64,000 bases of DNA from Prosthecobacter sp. (GTDB taxonomy: Bacteria; Verrucomicrobiota; Verrucomicrobiia; Verrucomicrobiales; Verrucomicrobiaceae): contig NZ_JAXMIH010000006.1 in NCBI RefSeq assembly GCF_034366625.1, positions 1,054,001 to 1,118,000 of the forward strand. The letters run 5' to 3'. Within the stretch, counting starts at the first letter, position 1, and each line of letters begins with the position of its first letter. A program made the translations under genes and the position numbers. Below the pieces are notes generated by a model that saw only the letters and a list, made by a program, of their open reading frames with translations, did no database searches and was not told the DNA's origin. Below, one piece after another: positions 13,517 to 49,336 of this stretch.

Positions 13517-14854
13517 CTACGCGATCAATTCATTGATCAGCCGGCCACCGTTCACGATGTCCACCGGGCGGACGTTTTCGACGACGATGCGCTTGCTGGC
13601 GTTGATGCCGAGCAGGCGGTACATCGTGCGGGCGAGGTCTTCGGGGCCGACGGGATTTTCGTCAGGTTCGCCGCCGAGGGCGTCGGACTTGCCGTAAACA
13701 AAACCTTTCTTCACGCCGCCACCGGCCACCGCCACGGAGAAGACGCGCGGGTAGTGGTCGCGGCCGTTGGTGCTGTTGATCTTCGGCGTGCGACCGAATT
13801 CGGAGCTGACAAGCACCAGTGTGCTGTCGAGCATGCCGCGTTCGTCGAGATCCTTGATGAGACGGGCGAAGGCGGTGTCGAACTGCGGCGCCTGGCTCTC
13901 AAATGAGCCTTTGATGTTCGAGTGATGGTCCCAACTGCCGTAGTTCACCGAAACCATGCGCACACCGGCTTCAACGAGACGACGTGCGAGGAGGAAGCGC
14001 TGGCCAGCGGCGTTGCGGCCGTATTCATCGCGCAGTTTGACCGGTTCAGCGGCGAGATTGAAGGCTTCGCGGGCTTTGTCGGAACTGATGAGGTTGTAGG
14101 CCGCCGCGTAGAATTTATCCATGGCGCTGAGGCCGTCGGATTTCTCCGTGCTGCGGAAATGCTCATCCACCGCGCCGAGCAGGCTGCGGCGGCGCTCGAA
14201 GCGCTTTGCGTCGATGTCTTTCGGCGAGGCAAGATCACGCACGGTGAAATTGCCATCCGCAGGATCGCTGCCGAGGGCGAAGGGACCGAAGGCGCTGCTC
14301 ATGTAGCCGCTCCCTTGATCCGGTGCGAAGACACTCGGGATGGCAACGTAGGGCGGCAGGTTGTTCCGCGGACCCTGCTCGTGCGAAATGATGGAGCCGA
14401 AGCTGGGGAACTTGATCGCCGGGCTGGGGCGGTAGCCGGTGAACATGTTGTGCGTACCGCGTTCGTGCGCCGCCTCACCGTGCGTCACCGAGCGGATGAT
14501 GCTGATCTTGTCGAGGATCTTGGCGATGTTCGCGAACTTCTCACCGACGTACTCGCCCGTCACGCCCTTGATCGGACTGAACGGCCCACGGTAATCGGGC
14601 GAGGCAAAGGGCTTCGGATCCCACGACTCATGCTGCGCCATCCCGCCCGGCAGGTAGATGTGGATGATCGAGGTGGCGACCGGCTTGTAACTCTCCACCG
14701 CAGGCATGGCCAGGTCGGCAGCCTGGAGCTTCAACAACTGCGGCAGCGTGATGCCAAGACCCGCCATGGCGCCCACCTGAAGGAAATCACGACGGCCTTG
14801 GGCGGTCGTGAAGAGGTTGCTGTGATTGCCGGAGCACAAGGGATGCATTTTCAT
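13517..14854 (-). CDS. DUF1501 family secreted protein (sulfatase-fold)
   Basis: A 445-residue protein starting MKMHPLCSGNHSNLF. It has a twin-Arg-like signal (GRRDFLQVGAMAGLGITLPQLL) followed by HIYLPGGMAQHESWDPKP, the classic opening of DUF1501 proteins, and SSEFGRTPKINSTNGRDHYPRVF near the end. These are distant alkaline-phosphatase/sulfatase-fold proteins of unknown activity. In Planctomycetes and Verrucomicrobia they usually sit next to DUF1549/DUF1553 cytochrome-like genes, and no such partner is here. The ATG at 14854 was preferred to the frame start at 14950 because it gives the family N-terminus. Confidence 0.87.
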   Translation of the reverse strand: MKMHPLCSGNHSNLFTTAQGRRDFLQVGAMAGLGITLPQLLKLQAADLAMPAVESYKPVATSIIHIYLPGGMAQHESWDPKPFASPDYRGPFSPIKGVTGEYVGEKFANIAKILDKISIIRSVTHGEAAHERGTHNMFTGYRPSPAIKFPSFGSIISHEQGPRNNLPPYVAIPSVFAPDQGSGYMSSAFGPFALGSDPADGNFTVRDLASPKDIDAKRFERRRSLLGAVDEHFRSTEKSDGLSAMDKFYAAAYNLISSDKAREAFNLAAEPVKLRDEYGRNAAGQRFLLARRLVEAGVRMVSVNYGSWDHHSNIKGSFESQAPQFDTAFARLIKDLDERGMLDSTLVLVSSEFGRTPKINSTNGRDHYPRVFSVAVAGGGVKKGFVYGKSDALGGEPDENPVGPEDLARTMYRLLGINASKRIVVENVRPVDIVNGGRLINELIA

Positions 14855-14980
14855 GGTCGTGTCAGTGGGTTCAGACACGAACTTACGGCAGGCAAACCAG
14901 GGTGTTACGCCCGCGCCCAACTGTGACAAACTAGGAGCAATGATGCGCAAAGGATGAGCGCTTGGCCTGCGTTTGCAGCG

Positions 14981-15018
14981 CCTATTTCTCCCAGCCGCGA
15001 ATCTTCACATGCACCTGC
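14981..15018. repeat. Left copy of 38-bp imperfect direct repeat flanking the mcrBC cassette (displaced TPR-gene 3' end)
   Basis: It matches 19288-19325 at 34 of 38 positions. Read on the minus strand it encodes QVHVKIRGWEK-stop, the exact C-terminus of the TPR-like protein at 19289-19915. All four differences are silent third-codon changes. Weaker homology continues to about 15030 (GR-V for GKV) but with one base missing, so this is a dead fragment. The mcrC stop lies four bases beyond, at 15034. Confidence 0.8.
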
Positions 15019-15033
15019 CCACGCGGCCCAGCT

Positions 15034-16122
15034 TCATTTGCCGGGCGTCAACGTTGCCTTGGTTTCGTCAGCAGGAATCAGACTCAACAAAGAGGACAAC
15101 TGCTCATGCACATCTTTCCAAGACTGGTTGAGATCAAGGCTGGCGGCGCGGACGCGATGGCCGAGTAGTCGATAGCGAAGGTCGATCTGGAAACCCATAG
15201 CCGGGTATATCAGCAGCCCTTCCACTTGCTCCCAGCCTGGAGTGACAGCCTGATTCTTCAGATAGCTGACAAGCTGGTAGAGGTTTTCGGATTTCAGCTT
15301 TGGCGTGCCATGCTGGCTGGTCATGGTCTCTGAGTAGTATTTGCAGTCCGCGATGAGCTTTCGATCCGGCCATTCCATGGTGACATCCGTGAACATGCCT
15401 GGCAGGTGATCGAGCGAGGCGGCATCCGCTTCGACCTGCCAGTTCACGCTTTTGGCGCTGACTCTGGCATCTGGAAAGTGTCGTGTGGCAAAGTTGCGTA
15501 CGAACTGCTCAAAGAGCCTGTGCATGACAACCTCGTCTTGCAGGATGTCCTGGATGCGATGCTCTCCTGTCGTCTTTTCAGCAGGGAGGATCAGCCGGTG
15601 GACCAATTCGCACAAGTTGAGAAGGAATCGGTAGATGCGATTGTTTCGGTGAAGCTGCACACGCCGAAAAATCTGAGCGCTAAGGGGAATCTCACGCACT
15701 GTTTGAAGTGGAGCCAGAGCATGGCGGAGTTGGCTTCGGTTCTCATGCGTTAGCTCGTGGCAGACGATGAGGCGAGCAGCCGTGCTCCGAAGGATTTGGT
15801 TGTGTAGGACATCCGGGCTGAGTTCATCGAAAGTGCAGATCATGCGTCCTGCCAGATGTGTCTGGCGGCGCTGGCTCTCCATTATGTGCAGCCTTCCTCG
15901 CAGCCGTGAAGTTTCCTCGATGTGTGGAGTGTAGTCACGATCCACTCCCTGATGGGCGAGTTGCCGCAGCCCTCCAGCCAACATCACTGCAAAAAGATTC
16001 TCCAAATCCGGGCATTGTTCAGCCGCTATCTCCCGTGTTTCGCCAGGACGGTAATGATCCCAAGCGTAGGTGAGTAGGTAATAGAGATTCAGGATGGGGA
16101 TGCCAGAAGCCATGCGTCTCAA
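15034..16122 (-). CDS. mcrC: McrC-type nuclease subunit of McrBC restriction system
   Basis: A 362-residue protein. The N-terminal LNLYYLLTYAWD and FDELSPDVLHNQILRSTAARL match McrC. The C-terminal half has LFEQFVRNF (about 203-211) followed by a PD-(D/E)xK nuclease core: Asp246 in MFTDVTME, then Asp259-Cys-Lys261 in IADCKYY, and YQLVSYL (about 282-288). McrC is the endonuclease subunit driven by the McrB GTPase, and together they cut DNA carrying modified cytosine. The start overlaps the mcrB stop by four bases (ATGA), so the two are coupled. The gene ends at the left copy of the flanking repeat. Confidence 0.9.
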   Translation of the reverse strand: MRRMASGIPILNLYYLLTYAWDHYRPGETREIAAEQCPDLENLFAVMLAGGLRQLAHQGVDRDYTPHIEETSRLRGRLHIMESQRRQTHLAGRMICTFDELSPDVLHNQILRSTAARLIVCHELTHENRSQLRHALAPLQTVREIPLSAQIFRRVQLHRNNRIYRFLLNLCELVHRLILPAEKTTGEHRIQDILQDEVVMHRLFEQFVRNFATRHFPDARVSAKSVNWQVEADAASLDHLPGMFTDVTMEWPDRKLIADCKYYSETMTSQHGTPKLKSENLYQLVSYLKNQAVTPGWEQVEGLLIYPAMGFQIDLRYRLLGHRVRAASLDLNQSWKDVHEQLSSLLSLIPADETKATLTPGK

Positions 16123-19100
16123 ATGCCGAGTGCCTGACGAGCGGCACCGAGGCCTTTCGGATCGTCCACCCAGTATTCCTGGAGCAGCGGTAGGACTTCA
16201 TGCGTGAGCACATCCGTCAGCCATCCTTCCGCATCGTGAACTTCCGAATTGGGGACGAAGAAGCTGTGTCCGATGCGGTAGCCGCTGCCAAGATTGGCCG
16301 CATCTCCGGTAATGCGCTCATTTACCAAGGCCATGCCCTGGATGATGCGATCACACACTCCGGGGGAAATCTTTTTGGACTCCAAAAAGCTACGGAAGGC
16401 AGGATGAGCAAAGCCCGGTTCCATTTCGACAAAGGCAAAGCGTCTGCGCAGGGCGTAGTCCACCATGCTTAGCGAACGGTCCGCCGTGTTCATGGTGCCA
16501 ATGATGAAGACATTCTCCGGCACATAAAAACGATCTTCGTGAGACGAGGTGTAGGTGAGAGGCAGCGCATAGGATGGGCTCCGTTTATCGGACTCGATGA
16601 GCATCATTAGCTCGCCGAGTATTTTGGAGAGGTTTCCCCGGTTGATCTCATCAATGATGAACACATGTGGATCATCCGGTCGAGTCATGGCCTGACGGCA
16701 GAAGCGGTAAAACGGGCCGTCTCTCAAAACGAACCCGCCGTTGCCATCGGGGCGGTAGCCCTGCACGAAGTCCTCGTAGCTCATGCTCTGATGAAACTGG
16801 ACCATCGGAGCGCGGCTCTCGTCTTTCACGCCCATCAGCAAATAGGCAAGGCGGCGCGCCACAAAGGTCTTTCCCGTGCCAGGTGCGCCTTGGAGCACGA
16901 GGTTTTTCTTCCGTCGGAGGGTGGTGCAGATGCTTTCGAGTTTCTCCTGCATCATGAAGAGATCCTTCAAAGCGACACCCATATCATAGATGGACGGCTC
17001 GGAGGCTGCTGATTCCACGTCCGACTCCGCTAGCTCGATCACCGAGTCAAATTCCGCCTTCGTCAGCCGCAAAATCGAGGCTTGAGAGAAGCTGAGCGGT
17101 TCGCTCGCCTTCAGTAGCGGCTGGGCTTTCATCTCATCCAGCAGCACAGGACGCCGCAGTTTCTCGATGATGGAAAAACCGACACCAACGCCTCCTGTCT
17201 CGGCCATGCCGCGAGTCACGCGACAGATCGCCACGGCAAATCGCTTCGGCGATGTCACATAGGCAATGGCGAGGTCTCCGGGACGTGCTGCGGCAAACCA
17301 CTGCGGTTTTTGGCGCTTGCGACCGTTCTGATTGACCGCTGTGTAAACTTCAACCTCATCGTTGGACACCTTCTCCTTCTCGATGCGGCTCTCGATGTCC
17401 CAGATGTCTGGATTGCAGTTGAACCACCAGTAATTGGGAGCTGCTGATGAATTGCCGGGTTGCTCTTGGACTACCGAGGTGTCGGGATTGCTGCTGTAGA
17501 ACTCGCGGATGGCCGCCATCAATTCTGCTTTATCCTCAAGGCGACTGAGTGTGACCTGTGGCAATTGCACGCCATCCGGCACGTCCATCCCACGGTCATC
17601 CAGCCACTCCACGGATCGCTGGTGGCAATGTCGTGCTGCTGCGCCTTCAACAAACTCATACTCACCGCGCACCACACCGCGTCCGAGGATACGAAACAGG
17701 CCGCCTTTGAGGAAAACCTCGTCCCCCTCCTGCATTCCTTGGGCAAAGTCATGAAGCATGCTGCCGACAATGTTCTTCCCCGCATCCGGTTCTGTGGTGG
17801 CCAACGCTTCGCGAACCTGATCCAACTCGGTCAAATGGCTCAGATCTCCTGTTTTCCCCCATCCAATCGTGATGTGTGACTGCTCGCGCCACTCAGGCAG
17901 CAGTTTGGCGTTTTCTCCGGGCGCGATAAGCCAGATGGGGCGTGCCTTGTTTTGGGCGACCTCTTTGAGACCTTGCAGGAGGAGCTCCGTTCGTGAATTA
18001 GGCTCCATGATGAGCTGCCAGAGTTCTGGGCGATGATCCTCCGAGTAGGGACTACGCTTCATCGAACGAAAGTGATCCCTCACGCAAAGAGATACAGCAA
18101 GATGCTCCTGCTGAAGGGCGACGTTCTCCAAATACTCATCCAGCTCAAAGGTGAACACAGCATAAGCATGGCCGTCGATTTGAATCTCGAAAACACTCCA
18201 GCGGTGAGATGCCTGAGCTGCGATCGGGGAATCCTCCCGCAGCACCAGTCTGACGATTTTCTCCGTCTTGCTTGCGCCATAGTCCATCACCACCCAACGG
18301 CCATACATGATGCGGAAAGCCGTGCATGGCACCTTCGGAGCCTTCGTGGTCTGGTAAACTTTGCTGCTGATGATCAACCGCACACCTCCTGTGTTGTCGC
18401 CGTCATCCAAGTCGAAAAGGTAGCTGCGCAGTCGGTCGAGCACGACGTCTGCCTGCTGCCGGTCATCAAACATGAAATCAAACGGGTGCCCAAACTTCTG
18501 CGGGGAACTTTCAGCCCAGAGATGGGCCTGACGTGAGAACTCAATGACATCTGGTCCCACCACTCGCCGCAACTCGTGAATCCAAGATAGATATGAGGCC
18601 CCATCGTCTGGTTCAGTGGTAACTCCCTTCGTTTTAGCGAAGGCGATGTTCTTGCGATCCAACGCGGGCCAGGCTTGCGGACGGCACCAGAAAAAGCCCA
18701 TGGTCAGAGTGGCTTTGCCGACCTTGCGAAGCGCAAAACAGGCGTCGAGCATTTCGGCTGTGAGAGTTCCTTCTTCTGGACTGGATTTCATCAGCACCTC
18801 AAAGACCTCCCACAGCGTTTCGACGTGATGGGGATCGCGTCGCTTTGAATATGGCATCAGCCAGGCAGACTGGTTGTTGAGGATCGGCAGTCCGTCGTAA
18901 TCCTGCGGAACTTCCGAAGTGAGCGACCATCGTTCCTTGAGGAAGCGCCACATGGCTGTGCGGTTCGTATCCGTGACACCACGATTGAAATTGCCCATGA
19001 AGGTGAATGGGTCGATTTCGAGAAGCTCAAAACGCCGTCCATCGGCATCCATGTCCTCAATGGAGCTGGCTTTGAGGCCCGCCGCACGCATGTCTCGAAT

Positions 19101-19184
19101 GACTTGAATCAACTCCGGCTGATGCCGCCGGTAGGCACGCAATTTTTCCGCCGCCTCTTGATGAATGGGAACCCAGGTGAACAT
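16119..19184 (-). CDS. mcrB: McrB-type AAA+ GTPase with two EVE/PUA-like reader modules
   Basis: A 1021-residue protein. Residues 60-190 form an N-terminal module (GNFNRGVTDTNRTAMWRFL, LTMGFFWCRPQAW) seen on other AAA-EVE proteins. About 415-545 is an EVE/PUA-like segment (PIWLIAPGENAK, HITIGWGKTGDLS, GDEVFLKGGLFRILGRG). About 585-720 is a second, clearer EVE domain (YWWFNCNPDIWDIESR, ARPGDLAIAYVTSPKRFAVA). The motor is C-terminal: Walker A GAPGTGKT (766-773), Walker B FIIDEINRG (842-850), McrB signature MNTADRS (898-904) and RRRF (913-916). It is expected to recognise modified DNA and drive McrC by GTP hydrolysis. By eye the codons are more AT-rich than in neighbouring genes. No methyltransferase accompanies it, as expected for type IV systems. 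Confidence 0.9.
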   Translation of the reverse strand: MFTWVPIHQEAAEKLRAYRRHQPELIQVIRDMRAAGLKASSIEDMDADGRRFELLEIDPFTFMGNFNRGVTDTNRTAMWRFLKERWSLTSEVPQDYDGLPILNNQSAWLMPYSKRRDPHHVETLWEVFEVLMKSSPEEGTLTAEMLDACFALRKVGKATLTMGFFWCRPQAWPALDRKNIAFAKTKGVTTEPDDGASYLSWIHELRRVVGPDVIEFSRQAHLWAESSPQKFGHPFDFMFDDRQQADVVLDRLRSYLFDLDDGDNTGGVRLIISSKVYQTTKAPKVPCTAFRIMYGRWVVMDYGASKTEKIVRLVLREDSPIAAQASHRWSVFEIQIDGHAYAVFTFELDEYLENVALQQEHLAVSLCVRDHFRSMKRSPYSEDHRPELWQLIMEPNSRTELLLQGLKEVAQNKARPIWLIAPGENAKLLPEWREQSHITIGWGKTGDLSHLTELDQVREALATTEPDAGKNIVGSMLHDFAQGMQEGDEVFLKGGLFRILGRGVVRGEYEFVEGAAARHCHQRSVEWLDDRGMDVPDGVQLPQVTLSRLEDKAELMAAIREFYSSNPDTSVVQEQPGNSSAAPNYWWFNCNPDIWDIESRIEKEKVSNDEVEVYTAVNQNGRKRQKPQWFAAARPGDLAIAYVTSPKRFAVAICRVTRGMAETGGVGVGFSIIEKLRRPVLLDEMKAQPLLKASEPLSFSQASILRLTKAEFDSVIELAESDVESAASEPSIYDMGVALKDLFMMQEKLESICTTLRRKKNLVLQGAPGTGKTFVARRLAYLLMGVKDESRAPMVQFHQSMSYEDFVQGYRPDGNGGFVLRDGPFYRFCRQAMTRPDDPHVFIIDEINRGNLSKILGELMMLIESDKRSPSYALPLTYTSSHEDRFYVPENVFIIGTMNTADRSLSMVDYALRRRFAFVEMEPGFAHPAFRSFLESKKISPGVCDRIIQGMALVNERITGDAANLGSGYRIGHSFFVPNSEVHDAEGWLTDVLTHEVLPLLQEYWVDDPKGLGAARQALGI

Positions 19185-19287
19185 GGTCGCTCAGCATGGC
19201 AAGTGGGTAACGATGCACAACCTTGGAGACATCTTCAGCCGTCGAGCGGCACAGCGAGGTCGGTGTAAGCGGTTGTTTTGACGATTA
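19185..19287. other. mcrB upstream region inside the cassette
   Basis: These 103 bases separate the mcrB ATG from the right flanking repeat and must hold the mcrBC promoter, read leftwards. I could not identify a convincing -35/-10 pair. The TPR-like gene points the same way, so read-through from it is also possible. Confidence 0.4.
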
Positions 19288-19325
19288 CCTACTTCTCCCA
19301 CCCACGAATCTTCACGTGCACCTGC
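19288..19325. repeat. Right copy of 38-bp imperfect direct repeat (intact 3' end of the TPR-like gene)
   Basis: The last 37 bases of the TPR-like coding region plus one following base. It pairs with 14981-15018, 34/38 identical and in the same orientation. It forms the right boundary of the mcrBC cassette. Confidence 0.8.
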
Positions 19326-19915
19326 GCCACCTTGCCCATGTAGTGGTCCATGGCGAAGTCTTTGGCAGCTTTGAGCATGTGATCCTTGGCTTTGGCATCG
19401 TCGCCAGTGGCCTCGAAATAGAGGCCGAGGTAGAGATGCGCATAGCAGCGGTGGTTGCGCAGGCGTTCGCCTTCGCCTTCCTCGGCGGCCTTCAGCACGG
19501 CCTCCTCGCTGCCTTTGCCGGCGAAGAGTTCGTGAACCTGCTTCATCGGGATGCGGCTGTCGCCTTCGATGGGAATGAAGACCTTGCGCGCGGCCTCCAC
19601 GCCCTCGCCCTTGGCGATGCAGAGGAAATGCCAGGCGGCGTTCTCCACGTCGTTGCCGTTCACGGTTTGATGCACTTCAAACTGTTCGCGCCCGCCTTTG
19701 AAATCGCCCGCGTAGTAGAGCGAGAGGCCGCGCTGCCAGAGCTGCGGCTTGGAATCAGGCGCGAGGGTGATCAGCTTGTCGAACGCGGCGACGGATTCCT
19801 TCGGTTTGGCATCGAAGAAGGCATCCACGCCCTGCTTGAACAACGCGTTTGGCGTTTCCTGCGCTTCAACGGAGGACAACAGGCCAAGCAGGAGGAGGGA
19901 GAGCAGTTTTTTCAT
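19289..19915 (-). CDS. Secreted TPR-like repeat protein
   Basis: A 208-residue protein with a signal peptide (MKKLLSLLLLGLLSSVEAQ). TPR-like helices follow (ALFKQGVDAFFDAKPKESVA, WQRGLSLYYAGDFKGG, AHLYLGLYFEATGDDAKAKD). It ends QVHVKIRGWEK. It resembles small secreted tetratricopeptide proteins common in Verrucomicrobia and Planctomycetes, with unknown partner. The ATG at 19915 was chosen because it starts the signal peptide. Its 3' end is the apparent insertion point of the mcrBC cassette and remains intact. Confidence 0.82.
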   Translation of the reverse strand: MKKLLSLLLLGLLSSVEAQETPNALFKQGVDAFFDAKPKESVAAFDKLITLAPDSKPQLWQRGLSLYYAGDFKGGREQFEVHQTVNGNDVENAAWHFLCIAKGEGVEAARKVFIPIEGDSRIPMKQVHELFAGKGSEEAVLKAAEEGEGERLRNHRCYAHLYLGLYFEATGDDAKAKDHMLKAAKDFAMDHYMGKVAQVHVKIRGWEK

Positions 19916-19955: not shown

Positions 19956-20948
19956 TCACAGCCACGCGAGCGGCAGGGGCAGAATCAACGCCAGATCGGA
20001 CAGCACGCGATGTGCCTCGACCGAAACATGTTTTCCGGAACGCTGCACGAGCGTGTGCAGCACGACGGCACCGAGCGCCGCCTGCGCCGGTCCGCGCAAC
20101 GCATGCTCCAGCGTGCCAAACTCGATCATCCACAGCACCGCGAGCGTGAACAGCAGCGTGCCGATCACCAGCGCCGCATGTCCTGCCGTGTTGTTTCGCT
20201 CTCTCGCGGAGATGCCGTGCAGATTGCAGGCAAACAGCAGCGCCAGCAGCAGCGATTCCAGCACCGGCTCAAGGATGCTGTCCGGCATCGCGAGAAACCG
20301 CGTGCTCGTGGTGCAGCCCAGCGCGAAGAGCAGCGCGGCGGTCATTTCCTTGGGCACCACCTGGCCCATGCGGATTTCCAACTGCCGCAGAAACGACAGC
20401 ACCATCACGCCCAGCACGAGCAGGCTGAGAGCGAAACGATACCCCGTGGACATCGGCATGTCTGAAATGAGCGTGATGCCACCCAGTCCGGCGCAGCAGA
20501 TGAACACATCACGCGAGACTCGGCTGCTCCGCGCCGACCACGACGCGAGATACAAGGCCACCAGCAGCGACAAACCCACGGCCTGCCATAAGATGCCTTC
20601 GGGGATGACATAAAAAGCCATCCACGCCAGCACCAGCAGCGCCGGGGGGATAACGCCCAGCATCAGCACGCGGCGGTGGCGGTGATAAAAAGCATGCCGC
20701 GCATCCAGTTCGCCGACGTTCTTCGTGCCAAAGGTATCGAGCGTGCGGTCGAGCACATAGATCACCCAGCAGGCGAGCGCGAGGCCGGCATCCAGCAGCG
20801 GCGTGAGCCGGATCCCGTGCGCCTGCGCCAGCACGCGCTGCCACAGCACGGCCACGAGCGGCGCTTCCAGGCTCAGCACATGCGGCCACAGCCACCACGG
20901 CGTGCGTTTGGCGTGGTTGGGTTCACTGGTTGGTGTCCGTTCGGTCAA
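19956..20948 (-). CDS. Multipass integral membrane protein, weakly UbiA-like
   Basis: A 330-residue protein with about eight to nine hydrophobic helices. Near residue 60 it has WVIYVLDRTLDTFG, which loosely recalls the Asp-rich motif of UbiA prenyltransferases. A second region has GGITLISDMPM. The match is not strong enough to assign a reaction. It lies 40 bases upstream of the TPR-like gene on the same strand and could be co-transcribed with it. It is divergent from the dynamin-like gene. Confidence 0.7.
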   Translation of the reverse strand: MTERTPTSEPNHAKRTPWWLWPHVLSLEAPLVAVLWQRVLAQAHGIRLTPLLDAGLALACWVIYVLDRTLDTFGTKNVGELDARHAFYHRHRRVLMLGVIPPALLVLAWMAFYVIPEGILWQAVGLSLLVALYLASWSARSSRVSRDVFICCAGLGGITLISDMPMSTGYRFALSLLVLGVMVLSFLRQLEIRMGQVVPKEMTAALLFALGCTTSTRFLAMPDSILEPVLESLLLALLFACNLHGISARERNNTAGHAALVIGTLLFTLAVLWMIEFGTLEHALRGPAQAALGAVVLHTLVQRSGKHVSVEAHRVLSDLALILPLPLAWL

Positions 20949-21054
20949 GCCGCGTTCTTTAGGAGCGGTTCACAGCGGCAGCAAGCGGCGATGCGGCGGA
21001 AACCTGTGCTCGAAGGTTGCGATGAGAGTGGCACGCGACACTTTGACGTACCCC

Positions 21055-22821
21055 ATGATCGGCGATGACTATTTCGAACTGCGTTCACGTATTGGCACAG
21101 ACCTGCTGGCTCTCGCTGCGGCGCTGCGTGAATCCGGTGGCGATGTCGAGTCCGCCGCCATCATCGACAATCTCATCGCCAGCCTGAAGGAACCGTTTGT
21201 CTTCGTGGTCGTGGGCGAGGTGAACGTGGGCAAATCGACTTTCCTCAATGCGCTCTTCGGCCAGGATTTTTCCCAAACCGGCATTTTGCCGACAACGGGC
21301 AAAATTCTCTTCTTCCGACACGGCACGGAGCACAGCGTGGTGCCGGTGACGCCGACGCTCGATGAAGTGTATGCGCCGGTCGATTTCCTGCGCGACTTCC
21401 ACATTGTCGATACGCCCGGCACGAACTCCGTCGAGAACGAGCATCAGATGATCACGGAGCGCTTCGTGCCCATCGCTGATCTGGTGATCTTTGTTTTTTC
21501 AGCGATGAATCCATGGGGAGCTTCCGCCTGGCAGTTTTTGGAAAAAGTGCATCGCGAGTGGATGCGCCATGTGGTGTTCGTGCTCCAGCAGAGCGATCTG
21601 CGCAGCCCGGAGGAAATCCAGGTCATCACCGACTACATGGGCCAGCTCACGCGGCAGCGTTTTGGCCGTGATTTCCCGTTGTTCGCCGTTTCGGCCAAAA
21701 AAGCCTTCCTCGCACGCAGTTCCGGCATCGACCGCGAGCGCCTGCTGCAGGACAGCGGATTTCACGCGCTTGAGTCCCACATCTCCGGCCTCGTGCGGCA
21801 CAACGCCGCGCGTCTGAACAAGCTGGCCAGCACCATGCGGCTGGCGCGCCAGATTCTCGACCAGATGCGCGAGCGCTTCGTCACTGGCATGCGCAACGCG
21901 CAACGCAAGGCAGCCGTGTTGCAGGAGTTGCAAACCGAGCGAGAGCTTCAGGTGGACCGCACCTTGAAGAAAATCCTTCCAGCGCTCGATGCCACGGAGC
22001 GTGACTACCACGAATCGGTGATGCGTGTGGCAGGACTCGCCAACGACGCGCTCGCGACGCGCAAAGCCTTTCAGCGCAAAGATGCCGAGGACGAAAACGA
22101 ATCCGGCGCACGCCAGCAGAGCCTCGACCACCGTCTGTTTCAGGAATTGCAGCACCGCACCGGTGACCGCTGGCGGCAGGTGAGCCTCGTGCTCGAAGAA
22201 GACGTGCATCAGTTCGAGCGCTTCCTGTATGCCCAGGGCCGTGGGATTCTGTTCCCGGTGGATGTGGTCATGCCGTCGCATGATTACGGCGAGGAGGAGA
22301 GCGAGCTGCGCCGTCGTTTCGGCACGCATGTCGATTCGTCGCTTCGTCGCTTCGTGATCGGCCTGAAGCTTGATGAGGACATCGAACCCGGACTCGAGAG
22401 TGCGCGAGTGACCGCACGCTGGCTGCCACGTCTTGTCCTCCCGGTGGTGATCGCGACGGCGCTGTGCGGCTGGTTTGACGGCATGACGAGCGCAGGCATC
22501 GCCGCCGGTGCGGGAGTGCTGCTCCTCGCGGTGGTTTATCTGCTCACCCAGGTCCGGCTGAGCAACGCCCGCAACGCCATCCTCGACAAGCTGGAGGAAT
22601 CCTCCGTCACGCTGCGCGACATGCTGTCCAAACAGGTCACTGAGGATGTCACCGCCATTTTCACGAAGTTCCTCGACACCCTGAACCCGGCCCAGGCCAA
22701 CGCTGTGCATGTGGAGCGCGAGCAGTCCACTCACGTCGAGCGCCTGCGCCAGCTCGCCGAATCCTTCGATGGGCTCGACAAGCAGATCCGTTCGCTGACG
22801 TCGGCCCGTGCTGAGAATTGA
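21055..22821 (+). CDS. Dynamin-like GTPase with C-terminal membrane segments
   Basis: A 588-residue protein. The G domain shows a P-loop GEVNVGKSTFLNALFG (about 57-72), a G2 threonine in ILPTTGKI, and G3 in VDTPGTNSVE. The usual NKxD position reads LQQSDLRS. Helical, coiled-coil-rich segments follow (RNAQRKAAVLQELQTERELQ). Two hydrophobic helices near residues 465-505 (LPRLVLPVVIATALCGWF, GIAAGAGVLLLAVVYLL) should anchor it in the inner membrane. Bacterial dynamin-like proteins remodel or fuse membranes. ATG 21022 (11 codons upstream) is an alternative start. Its stop codon overlaps an alternative start of queG. Confidence 0.85.
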   Translation: MIGDDYFELRSRIGTDLLALAAALRESGGDVESAAIIDNLIASLKEPFVFVVVGEVNVGKSTFLNALFGQDFSQTGILPTTGKILFFRHGTEHSVVPVTPTLDEVYAPVDFLRDFHIVDTPGTNSVENEHQMITERFVPIADLVIFVFSAMNPWGASAWQFLEKVHREWMRHVVFVLQQSDLRSPEEIQVITDYMGQLTRQRFGRDFPLFAVSAKKAFLARSSGIDRERLLQDSGFHALESHISGLVRHNAARLNKLASTMRLARQILDQMRERFVTGMRNAQRKAAVLQELQTERELQVDRTLKKILPALDATERDYHESVMRVAGLANDALATRKAFQRKDAEDENESGARQQSLDHRLFQELQHRTGDRWRQVSLVLEEDVHQFERFLYAQGRGILFPVDVVMPSHDYGEEESELRRRFGTHVDSSLRRFVIGLKLDEDIEPGLESARVTARWLPRLVLPVVIATALCGWFDGMTSAGIAAGAGVLLLAVVYLLTQVRLSNARNAILDKLEESSVTLRDMLSKQVTEDVTAIFTKFLDTLNPAQANAVHVEREQSTHVERLRQLAESFDGLDKQIRSLTSARAEN

Positions 22822-23989: not shown

Positions 23990-24064
23990 GGCGAGGTAGC
24001 AAAGTGGTAATGCACTGGTCTGCAAAACCGGTATGCGCGGGTTCAATTCCCGCCCTCGCCTCCA
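23990..24064 (+). tRNA. tRNA-Cys (anticodon GCA)
   Basis: The cloverleaf is complete. Acceptor arm GGCGAGG pairs with CCTCGCC, discriminator T, and CCA is encoded. The anticodon stem CTGGT/ACCGG encloses the loop CTGCAAA, with anticodon GCA. The T arm is GCGGG-TTCAATT-CCCGC. The D loop contains AGTGGTAA. Confidence 0.96.
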
Positions 24065-46523: not shown

Positions 46524-49336
46524 GAGGGTGGTTCTTCTTCGAGGGTGAAATGAAAGGTGGCTCCTTGATCCATGACCGACTCCGCCCACACACGCCCGCC
46601 GTGACGATGGATGACGCGCTGCACGATTGCAAGGCCGACTCCGGTGCCTTCGTAGTCCTCGGCCCGATGCAGACGCTGGAAGACGCCGAACAGCTTGTGG
46701 GCATAGCGCATGTCAAAACCTGCGCCATTGTCGCGCACAAAGTAAGCATTGATGCCATCTTCCGTTCTGCAGCCGATCTCGATGACCGCAGTCTCACGTT
46801 TGCGGCTGTACTTGAGGGCGTTGGAGAGGAGGTTGACCCAGACCTGCTTCAGCAGCGTGGGATCGCCTTCGCATTCAGGAAGTGATTCGATGCGCAGGTC
46901 GATCTGGCGGCCCTCACGCTGGCTCCCCAGTTCATCCAGCGCTGATTGCACGAGCATCCGGGGGTCGATCTTCTGCTTGTTCAACGGGGCGCGGCTGAGC
47001 CGGGAGAACGTCAGCAGGTCGTCGATCAATTCCCCCATCTTTTGCGTGTTGCTGCGGATGATCTGCAGATAGCGCCGGCCTTCTTCAGGGAGTTGCGGGC
47101 CGTAGTCCTCCAGCACGGCGCGGGAAAAGCCATCCATCGCGCGAAGAGGCGCGCGCAAATCGTGGGAGACCGAATAGGAGAAGGATTCCAGCTCCTTGTT
47201 GGCAGCCTCCAGCAGCTTGTTGGCAGCCTGCATTTTTTGGGAACTTTGGAAGACTTCCGCCTCCATCTGCTGCAGCCGCGCGTTCAAGGCGGCATCGTCT
47301 TGAGCGGGTCGTTGTTTGTACCGCACATACTCGGTCACCTCCTCCACGCGGTGGATGATGTGGCGGACACGACCGTCCGCATCCAGCAGCGGTGAGTTCA
47401 CCGGGCTCCAGTAGTGCTCTTCAAACGTGCCGTCAGGACGGCGCACATCGTATTTTTGAATCGCCATCGTGTCGGCAGTGGCATTGTGCAGCACGCGCTC
47501 CAGCGATGCGCGGAGGTTCGAGACACCGTCTGCCGCCGGATCATCCGGATTGTCCGGGAGTACTTCGAACAATCCCCGGCCCAGAATGCCTTCGCGTGTC
47601 GCCAGGGTGGCCTTGAGGTAGGCGTCGCTCGCGGCCACAATCGTGAAGCCAGGCGTGAGAACCAGATACAGGCCCGGCAGTGACTCGAAGAGACTTTGGA
47701 GTTCGGCCCGGCTGCTGCTCAATTCAACATTGACGGCCTCAAGCTGGGCGGTGCGTTCGATCACACGTTGCTCCAGTTCGGCATTCAACCGGCTGATCTT
47801 CGCCTTCGCCTGCTTGCGCTCGGTGATGTCCGCGAACATGGAAACCACCACCGGCTCCTGCTCATCGGAGAAGTCGATCAGCTCCATGGAAATCACGGCA
47901 TCAATCAGGCCTCCGTTTTTCCGCCGGAAGCGGGTCTCATAGTCGCGAACAAGCTCGTGAGCCTGCAGCCGTTTCATCAGCATGGTTCGTGTGGCCGGAT
48001 CATCCCACAGAGCCAGCTTCACCGACGTCTGGCCGATGAGCTCTTCACGTGTGAGATCGAAGAGCTGGCAGTAGTGCTCGTTGACCTCGATGAACCTGCC
48101 ATCCTGCATCGTGGTGATGCAGATGGCCCCCGGGTTGGACCGGAAAACCTTCGTGAACCGTGCCTCGCTCTCGCGCAGCGCCTCCTCGGCCTCCCTGCGC
48201 GCGGTGATGTCTTGGATGACCGCCAGCGTGCGCAAAGGATGACCGCCCTCGTCGCGGATGAGCGAGGTGCTGACGTTCACCCAGACAATCCGGCCGTCTT
48301 TGCCAACGTAGCGCTTCTCCAGGCTGATCCCTGAAACGTCACCGCGTGTCAGGCGCTCATGAGCGACCTTGTCGTTCGCTTGATCCTCAGGATGTGTCAG
48401 TTCAACGAACGTCTTCCGCAGCAGCTCCTCCTCCGAGTAGCCGGTGATCTCACAGAGCTTGGCATTGACCCGCAGGTAACGGCCGGTGTGGGGATCGACC
48501 TGTGCCTTGCCCACGGCGGCCGAATAAAAGCTGGCGCGAAATTCTTCTTCACTGGCGCGCAGCGCCTCCTCGGCCTCTTTGCGTTCGGTGATGTCGCGCA
48601 GGATCACCGTGTAAGTCTTCTGTCCGGCCACTTCGGCGTGAGAAATGGAAGCTTCGATGGGGAATTCATCACCGTTCGCACGCACGCCGCTCAGCGTTCC
48701 GAGGGAGCGCATCGAGCGCGAGGTATGGCTCGTCTGCCCGAAGCCTTTCACATGCTTTTTGTGCGCCTCCCGGAAGCGCTGGGGGATGAATCGGTCGAGG
48801 GGCTGATTCAGCGCCTCCGCTGCAGAGCAGCGGAACATCGACTCGGCGGCCGTGTTGAACAGCACGATGATCTGGTCGCTGTCCACGCTGATGATGGCGT
48901 CCATCGCGGAACTCACGATGTTGCTCATGCGCGCCTCGCTACGTTGAATGGATTCGTGCGCGGCCACCAGTTCTTCGTTGGCAGCCCGCAGCTTCTCATG
49001 CAGCACGGCAAACAACAACCCCACGCCGCTGAACACCCCCAGTCCCAGCAGCATGCGCGGCTCTTCGATCACGAAGGACAACTGCGGGGGCTCAAAGAAG
49101 TACCAGACCAGCATTACGGATAACGCGGTGCCCGCCAGCCCGCCCCGCCAGCCGCCAATCCATGAGCTGACGAAGACAGCAGGATAAAACAGCACAAACA
49201 CCAACGGCTTCAGCCAGAACCAAAGAGCCCACTGCATGCCCAAAGCCACCATGGGAGGGGCCAGCGCCAGCAGTATTTGATGCCTCGTGCCTGAGCCTTG
49301 CTTCACCTGGCGCACCCCCGTCGAGACGCACGACAT
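46520..49336 (-). CDS. Membrane-bound multi-PAS sensor histidine kinase
   Basis: A 938-residue protein. Residues about 20-110 form a four-helix DUF4118/KdpD-like membrane module ([32 protein letters not shown]). A short coiled-coil linker leads to about four PAS domains (130-250, 260-380, 385-500, 555-680) with PAC ends such as [17 protein letters not shown]. HisKA has the His in [15 protein letters not shown] and HATPase_c ends the protein ([26 protein letters not shown]). The kinase region is of the type found in bacteriophytochromes, but there is no GAF/PHY bilin domain. It heads a coupled three-gene signalling operon. Confidence 0.88.

Follow-up and report, generated by a model that had tools for sequence, protein, structure and literature searches.

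A two-gene McrBC restriction cassette stands behind a TPR-repeat gene in the 64-kb stretch of Prosthecobacter DNA analyzed here (the window), and two copies of the 3′ end of that gene flank it. The locus raises the questions of which of the two ends is the native one and by what route the cassette came to lie between them. A preliminary description made from the sequence alone had proposed that mcrBC arrived from a relative, that the incoming end restored the gene and displaced the old one, and that the site may be a hotspot for defense genes.

The locus and its repeated gene end

The features of the locus, in window coordinates, are as follows.

13517–14950, minus strand: DUF1501 gene (PF07394), the native neighbor on the far side of the insert, found behind the TPR gene in G012, G001, and G454
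14982–15030, minus strand: orphan native TPR 3′ end (left copy) with one base missing, matching the intact TPR end of G454 and the 45 bases past its stop
15026–15033, no strand: junction between the putative incoming DNA (mcrC side) and the native TPR 3′ end, placed by alignment and by the blastn match with G454, which on the DUF1501 side starts at 15030; its exact base is uncertain
15034–16122, minus strand: mcrC, McrBC nuclease subunit, 362 aa as listed (PF10117, E = 9e−30; NCBIfam McrC model, 314 bits against a cut-off of 338)
16119–19184, minus strand: mcrB, 1,021 aa, overlapping mcrC by 4 bp (Pfam AAA_5 and EVE; NCBIfam McrB model)
19185–19288, minus strand: putative incoming spacer that separates mcrB from the TPR stop, unmatched by blastn in the DNA behind the TPR gene of 32 relatives and replaced by other DNA in G454
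19289–19560, minus strand: TPR gene, 3′ part, which probably came in together with mcrBC and ends in the right copy (sisterhood with G454 lost; end codons unlike those of near relatives); the upper boundary is approximate
19289–19915, minus strand: complete TPR-repeat gene, 208 aa (TPR_2/TPR_6 in Pfam), host gene of the insertion

Realignment within the window reproduced the repeat exactly as the preliminary description had given it, with positions 14981–15018 and 19288–19325 identical at 34 of 38 bases in the same orientation. On the minus strand, both copies encode QVHVKIRGWEK followed by a stop codon, and the four codons that differ (CAT/CAC, CGC/CGT, GGC/GGG, and AAA/AAG) are all silent. 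The homology of the left copy extends to approximately 15028–15030 with one base missing, in agreement with the limit of about 15030 and the single deletion described earlier. The mcrC stop codon occupies 15034–15036, leaving 3–5 bases between it and the end of this homology; the earlier figure of four bases falls within this range.

When every same-strand diagonal of the 64 kb was scanned for pairs of 38-mers with at least 34 matches, only two places were found, the repeat pair at 14981/19288 and one other pair at 48172/48556, and no pair occurred in any of three triplet-block shuffles of the window used as controls. At one mismatch or fewer, a degenerate 27-base pattern of the TPR end had two occurrences in the 6.6-Mb genome to which the window belongs, both of them at the locus, and no third copy was found; among 56 genomes, the pattern was present in two copies in the own genome, in one copy in 13, and in none in 42. 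The possibility that the QVHVKIRGWEK end is a common repeat found elsewhere in the genome was thereby rejected at one mismatch or fewer. Between the repeats, mcrC (PF10117) and mcrB (AAA_5 and EVE) were the only open frames with family support, and neither the open-frame list nor Pfam revealed a recombinase or integrase gene there, both as described earlier. A tRNA-linked island was rejected, since the one tRNA that ARAGORN finds in the window lies at 23990, more than 4 kb away. The window also contains, at 20803–22821, a dynamin-like gene that matches LeoA/LeoBC models and stands upstream of the TPR gene in many nearer genus members.

The native end and the site in relatives

The sister genome G454 matched the window's genome at 93% over 3.9 kb upstream; on the DUF1501 side, a 3.0-kb match had 91% identity (blastn). 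In G454, the 45 bases past an intact TPR end are identical to those behind the left copy, and DUF1501 follows directly. The left copy lacked one base of the G454 end and had two silent third-position changes, which makes three differences within 48 bp, and the next 45 bp were identical. Three codons of the right copy differed from the G454 end, and in one of these every position differed: the right copy has AAG, CAC, and CGT where G454, G004, G032, G016, G025, and G010 have CGC, CAT, and CGC. The codon that is AAG in the right copy was CGC or CGT in all 15 relatives listed, and the nearest sequence to the right copy among 61 compared loci was 4 of 45 bases away. Because the left copy and the DNA beyond it agree with the TPR end of G454 and its next 45 bases, the left copy represents the old native end. 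Judged by sequence, the left copy is the displaced native end, and the right copy is the one that came in or changed, as the earlier proposal of a restored gene and a displaced end had held. A Campbell-type single crossover within the 48-bp end was disfavored, because the left copy is of the native type from its first informative codon.

The TPR gene was present in 42 of the 56 genomes, the own genome included. A search of a named collection with the TPR protein yielded 34 loci; most were Prosthecobacter and Verrucomicrobiaceae or Verrucomicrobia records, and the others comprised Brevifollis, one Planctomycetaceae, and three records under the title Akkermansia muciniphila. The region was compared in 33 genus members (the own genome and 32 relatives), some of whose contigs end soon past the TPR gene (among them those of G020, G014, and G031). 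Far from accompanying the TPR gene in all relatives, mcrB and mcrC were found behind it in the own genome only (1 of 33 regions). The second copy of the TPR end was likewise confined to the own genome, with G014, whose region is cut by the end of its contig, giving zero copies. In G012 and G001, DUF1501 lies within 60 bp of the TPR gene and a single end is present; together with G454, these genomes provide the empty sites that had been sought in relatives, and they support the arrival of mcrBC.

In other relatives (G004, G002, G011, G030, G027, and G029), 0.4–5.5 kb separate the TPR gene from DUF1501. The only match to defense models among 10 open frames picked from the interval in 8 relatives was a Ser/Thr kinase in G029, and in our judgment the models that it matched are generic for kinases. 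None of the 32 other genus regions carried mcrBC behind the TPR gene, and none had a second end that would mark use of the same site by another element. In these regions and the 10 frames picked, the proposed hotspot, with other defense genes at the same place, found no support. In G016 and G032, an SHD1-like gene follows the TPR gene, and DUF1501 is absent at that place.

Ancestry of the TPR gene and the route of entry

The ratio of own-to-G454 divergence to G454-to-others divergence averaged 0.30 in 22 upstream 150-bp windows (3.4 kb). The highest of these 22 values, 0.74, belonged to the adjoining window (150–300 bp from the stop), and the ratio reached 1.12 in the last 150 bp of the TPR gene. 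The twelve highest of 340 sliding windows all started less than 190 bp from the TPR stop, and 7 of the 12 excluded the last 48 bp. Single-breakpoint permutation tests with six references were significant in four cases, placing the breakpoint 240 bp from the TPR stop with G004 (p = 0.0002), 267 bp with G010 (p = 0.0006), 240 bp with G026 (p = 0.007), and 486 bp with G025 (p = 0.0002); the breakpoints with G032 (285 bp, p = 0.22) and G016 (269 bp, p = 0.36) were not significant.

The similarity of the own gene to near relatives fell from 0.889 (codons 20–157) to 0.847 (codons 157–194) and 0.822 (codons 194–209), whereas the values for G454 over the same ranges were 0.878, 0.871, and 0.922. Because the drop occurs in the own gene and not in G454, the own gene seems to be the changed party. 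Within the last 48 bp, none of the 2 to 5 informative sites was common to the own gene and any of the six references; these private differences point to no donor. In AU tests, the pairing of the own gene with G454 was not rejected in codons 110–193 (p = 0.27) and 150–193 (p = 0.49). The tree of codons 150–209 joined the two weakly (45/64), and the best tree of codons 20–110 had a further row within the pair (p = 0.33); with stretches as short as these, tree tests settle nothing about exchange. Furthermore, DUF1501 also loses the sisterhood of the own genome and G454 in 2 of 11 windows (ratios 1.01 and 1.04), and local mosaicism is therefore not unique to the junction.

The balance of these results favors an imported TPR tract that is longer than the repeat and starts approximately 200 bp upstream of it. 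From the divergence ratios and breakpoint scans, about 190–220 bp of the native TPR gene appear to have been replaced. Such a tract fits homologous exchange inside the gene rather than site-specific insertion at the repeat, and the breakpoint scans make recombination within the 3′ part of the gene, close to one of the two routes named in the preliminary description, the likeliest route. If the 48 bp had instead been doubled in place when mcrBC was inserted and the copies had then diverged, no donor TPR gene and no foreign TPR sequence would be needed, and the private differences of the right copy in the last 48 bp would fit. However, three substitutions would have had to accumulate in a single codon (CGC or CGT in all 15 listed relatives), and two more besides, in a gene that is still whole, and the excess of divergence reaches far upstream of the 48 bp; we consider such a duplication very improbable.

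Many integrase islands occupy gene 3′ ends, where they restore the gene and displace its old end. The present locus shares this layout, with a restored gene, a displaced old end, and direct repeats derived from the 3′ end of the gene. A tyrosine recombinase supplied in trans could have placed a circular cassette with a gene-restoring TPR 3′ end into the 48-bp repeat, and six tyrosine-recombinase family matches were found elsewhere in the genome, although none in the insert. However, the locus is unlike integrase islands in that it lacks an integrase, a single occupant has been seen, and the switch of ancestry apparently does not fall at the repeat. The insert carries no recombinase, no third copy of the TPR end was found in the genome at one mismatch or fewer, and no second end occurred in the 32 other genus regions (G014, cut by its contig end, being uninformative). 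The start of the foreign tract seems to lie well before the repeat, and the related cassettes of G282 and G437, described below, have no flanking copies. An insertion of this kind, and with it the earlier idea of an integrative element with its site at the 3′ end, is unlikely.

On balance, we consider it probable that the cassette entered by one-sided homologous exchange in the TPR gene combined with an illegitimate join behind mcrC, a process termed homology-facilitated illegitimate recombination (HFIR). Linear DNA from an unsampled relative, carrying the last few hundred bases of a TPR gene, the spacer, and mcrBC, would have entered the ancestor. On one side, homologous exchange would have occurred inside the TPR gene approximately 240–270 bp before its stop, as the mosaic divergence suggests; on the other side, the DNA just behind mcrC would have been linked to the native TPR gene at a point 48 bp short of the stop of that gene. 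The junction behind mcrC is abrupt at approximately 15026–15033, and we infer that the join was made without homology. The hybrid TPR gene would have stayed whole with mcrBC behind it, and the native last 48 bp would have remained next to DUF1501 as a dead remnant. The own genome encodes a ComEC-type competence protein, which lends this reading weak support; 10 of the 14 control genomes have the family as well.

A foreign TPR 3′ tract with a native DUF1501 side would also result if the insertion had taken place earlier, by whatever means, in another lineage and the finished arrangement had then been gained by homologous exchange on both sides. The left copy, with its three differences from G454 in 48 bp and none in the next 45 bp, could be read in the same way. 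No sampled relative has the arrangement, however, and the left copy and its downstream DNA look native, making such a transfer rather doubtful.

One-sided exchange with an illegitimate join has precedents. In the relevant passages of a study of HFIR (PMC3240628), homology serves the joining of one end only, resident DNA is usually lost, and the process is described in Streptococcus pneumoniae, Acinetobacter baylyi, and Pseudomonas stutzeri. According to the same passages, most cases involve 3–10 bp of microhomology, three of four E. coli clones had none, and HFIR is rare where measured and doubted as the source of most E. coli insertions. As reconstructed here, the locus would share with these products one probable homologous end, one putative non-homologous join, and apparently replaced resident DNA, and its insert likewise lacks a recombinase. 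It differs in being inferred from genomes, in its cargo (a defense system of approximately 4.3 kb versus the usual insert of approximately 1 kb), and in keeping the last 48 bp of the resident gene as a duplicate. A similar course is proposed as a hypothesis for Rhs and Vibrio T6SS effector–immunity loci with displaced orphan ends, in the part of that work concerned (PMC5361080), where a homologous anchor lying upstream would bring in a new module and displace the old 3′ part to the downstream side. The modules in question form the variable ends of toxin–immunity loci, whereas the window holds an unrelated restriction pair behind an ordinary TPR gene and a single event was seen.

These results confirm the locus as a well-resolved insertion scar with a known type of restriction system, ordinary in kind, and it is probably a recombination scar and not a new kind of mobile element. 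It offers a readable scar of a defense system entering a chromosome without mobility genes of its own, in which the anchor gene has been kept, probably in hybrid form, and the stranded old end marks the direction. Orphan gene ends flanking accessory genes could reveal further such entries.

The McrBC cargo and its relatives

The domain content points to an EVE-type McrBC restriction system, which presumably cuts modified foreign DNA. McrB has an EVE domain at residues 584–717 and an AAA motor at approximately 744–1010 with GAPGTGKT and NTAD motifs; the features of McrBC systems, namely an McrB AAA+ motor with the NxxD signature (NTAD), an adjoining McrC nuclease, and overlapping genes, are present. 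The NCBIfam McrB model matched residues 725–1010 with 341.5 bits, under its cut-off of 637, and both members of the window's pair scored below the cut-offs of these models.

Among 68 family genomes, McrB matches at E ≤ 1e−40 were found in the own genome, G282, and G437 only. The closest McrB was that of G282 (73%), followed by that of G437 (72% and 63% in two pieces); both genomes belong to other genera, and transfer from a sampled genome was ruled out at these identities. The G282 pair sits between two sulfatase genes, and the G437 pair sits between a lactonase-family gene and a DUF1552 gene, whose stop the mcrC gene overlaps by 4 bp (L100, 8286–8289). The G437 McrB lacks approximately residues 409–570 of the window's protein but keeps EVE and AAA, and the McrB and McrC of all three pairs fell below the curated NCBIfam cut-offs. 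No flanking copies of a gene end were found around either cassette (in G437, among the 20 largest of 26 repeat families). These are related bare two-gene McrBC pairs without flanking repeats, and their status as insertions is putative. A clean empty site for the G437 cassette was not obtained from G436, of the same genus, in which the similarity runs through DUF1552 as far as the stop codon and includes none of the mcrC side; there was one other match of 143 bp. It is conceivable, but very improbable, that EVE-McrBC has spread in Verrucomicrobiaceae as bare two-gene cassettes to ordinary gene 3′ ends, helped by host recombination or by a recombinase in trans, in which case the duplicated TPR end would record one such arrival.

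Carriage by a phage or plasmid was rejected: in searches limited to 1e−30 and 1e−20, all McrB matches (66 plasmid and 7 phage records) were below 60% identity, and none had a place covering 80%. Scans of genome contigs and viral contigs for McrB gave 3 and 2 pattern stretches, respectively, none of them a relative. Among the matches listed in a literature search, none was by its title on McrBC in Verrucomicrobia.

In common with known EVE-McrB type IV systems, as far as the relevant parts of two reports describe them (PMC7641849 and PMC11090510), the window has mcrB upstream of mcrC and EVE fused to an NxxD McrB motor. Unlike in those systems, the N-terminal region of its McrB is long, and residues 416–530 may constitute a second base-reading module; according to a figure legend in PMC7641849, EVE occupies one of two positions, not both. 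Residues 416–530 matched PADLOC PDC-S02, are missing from the G437 McrB, and may form a second EVE-like module beside the Pfam EVE domain.
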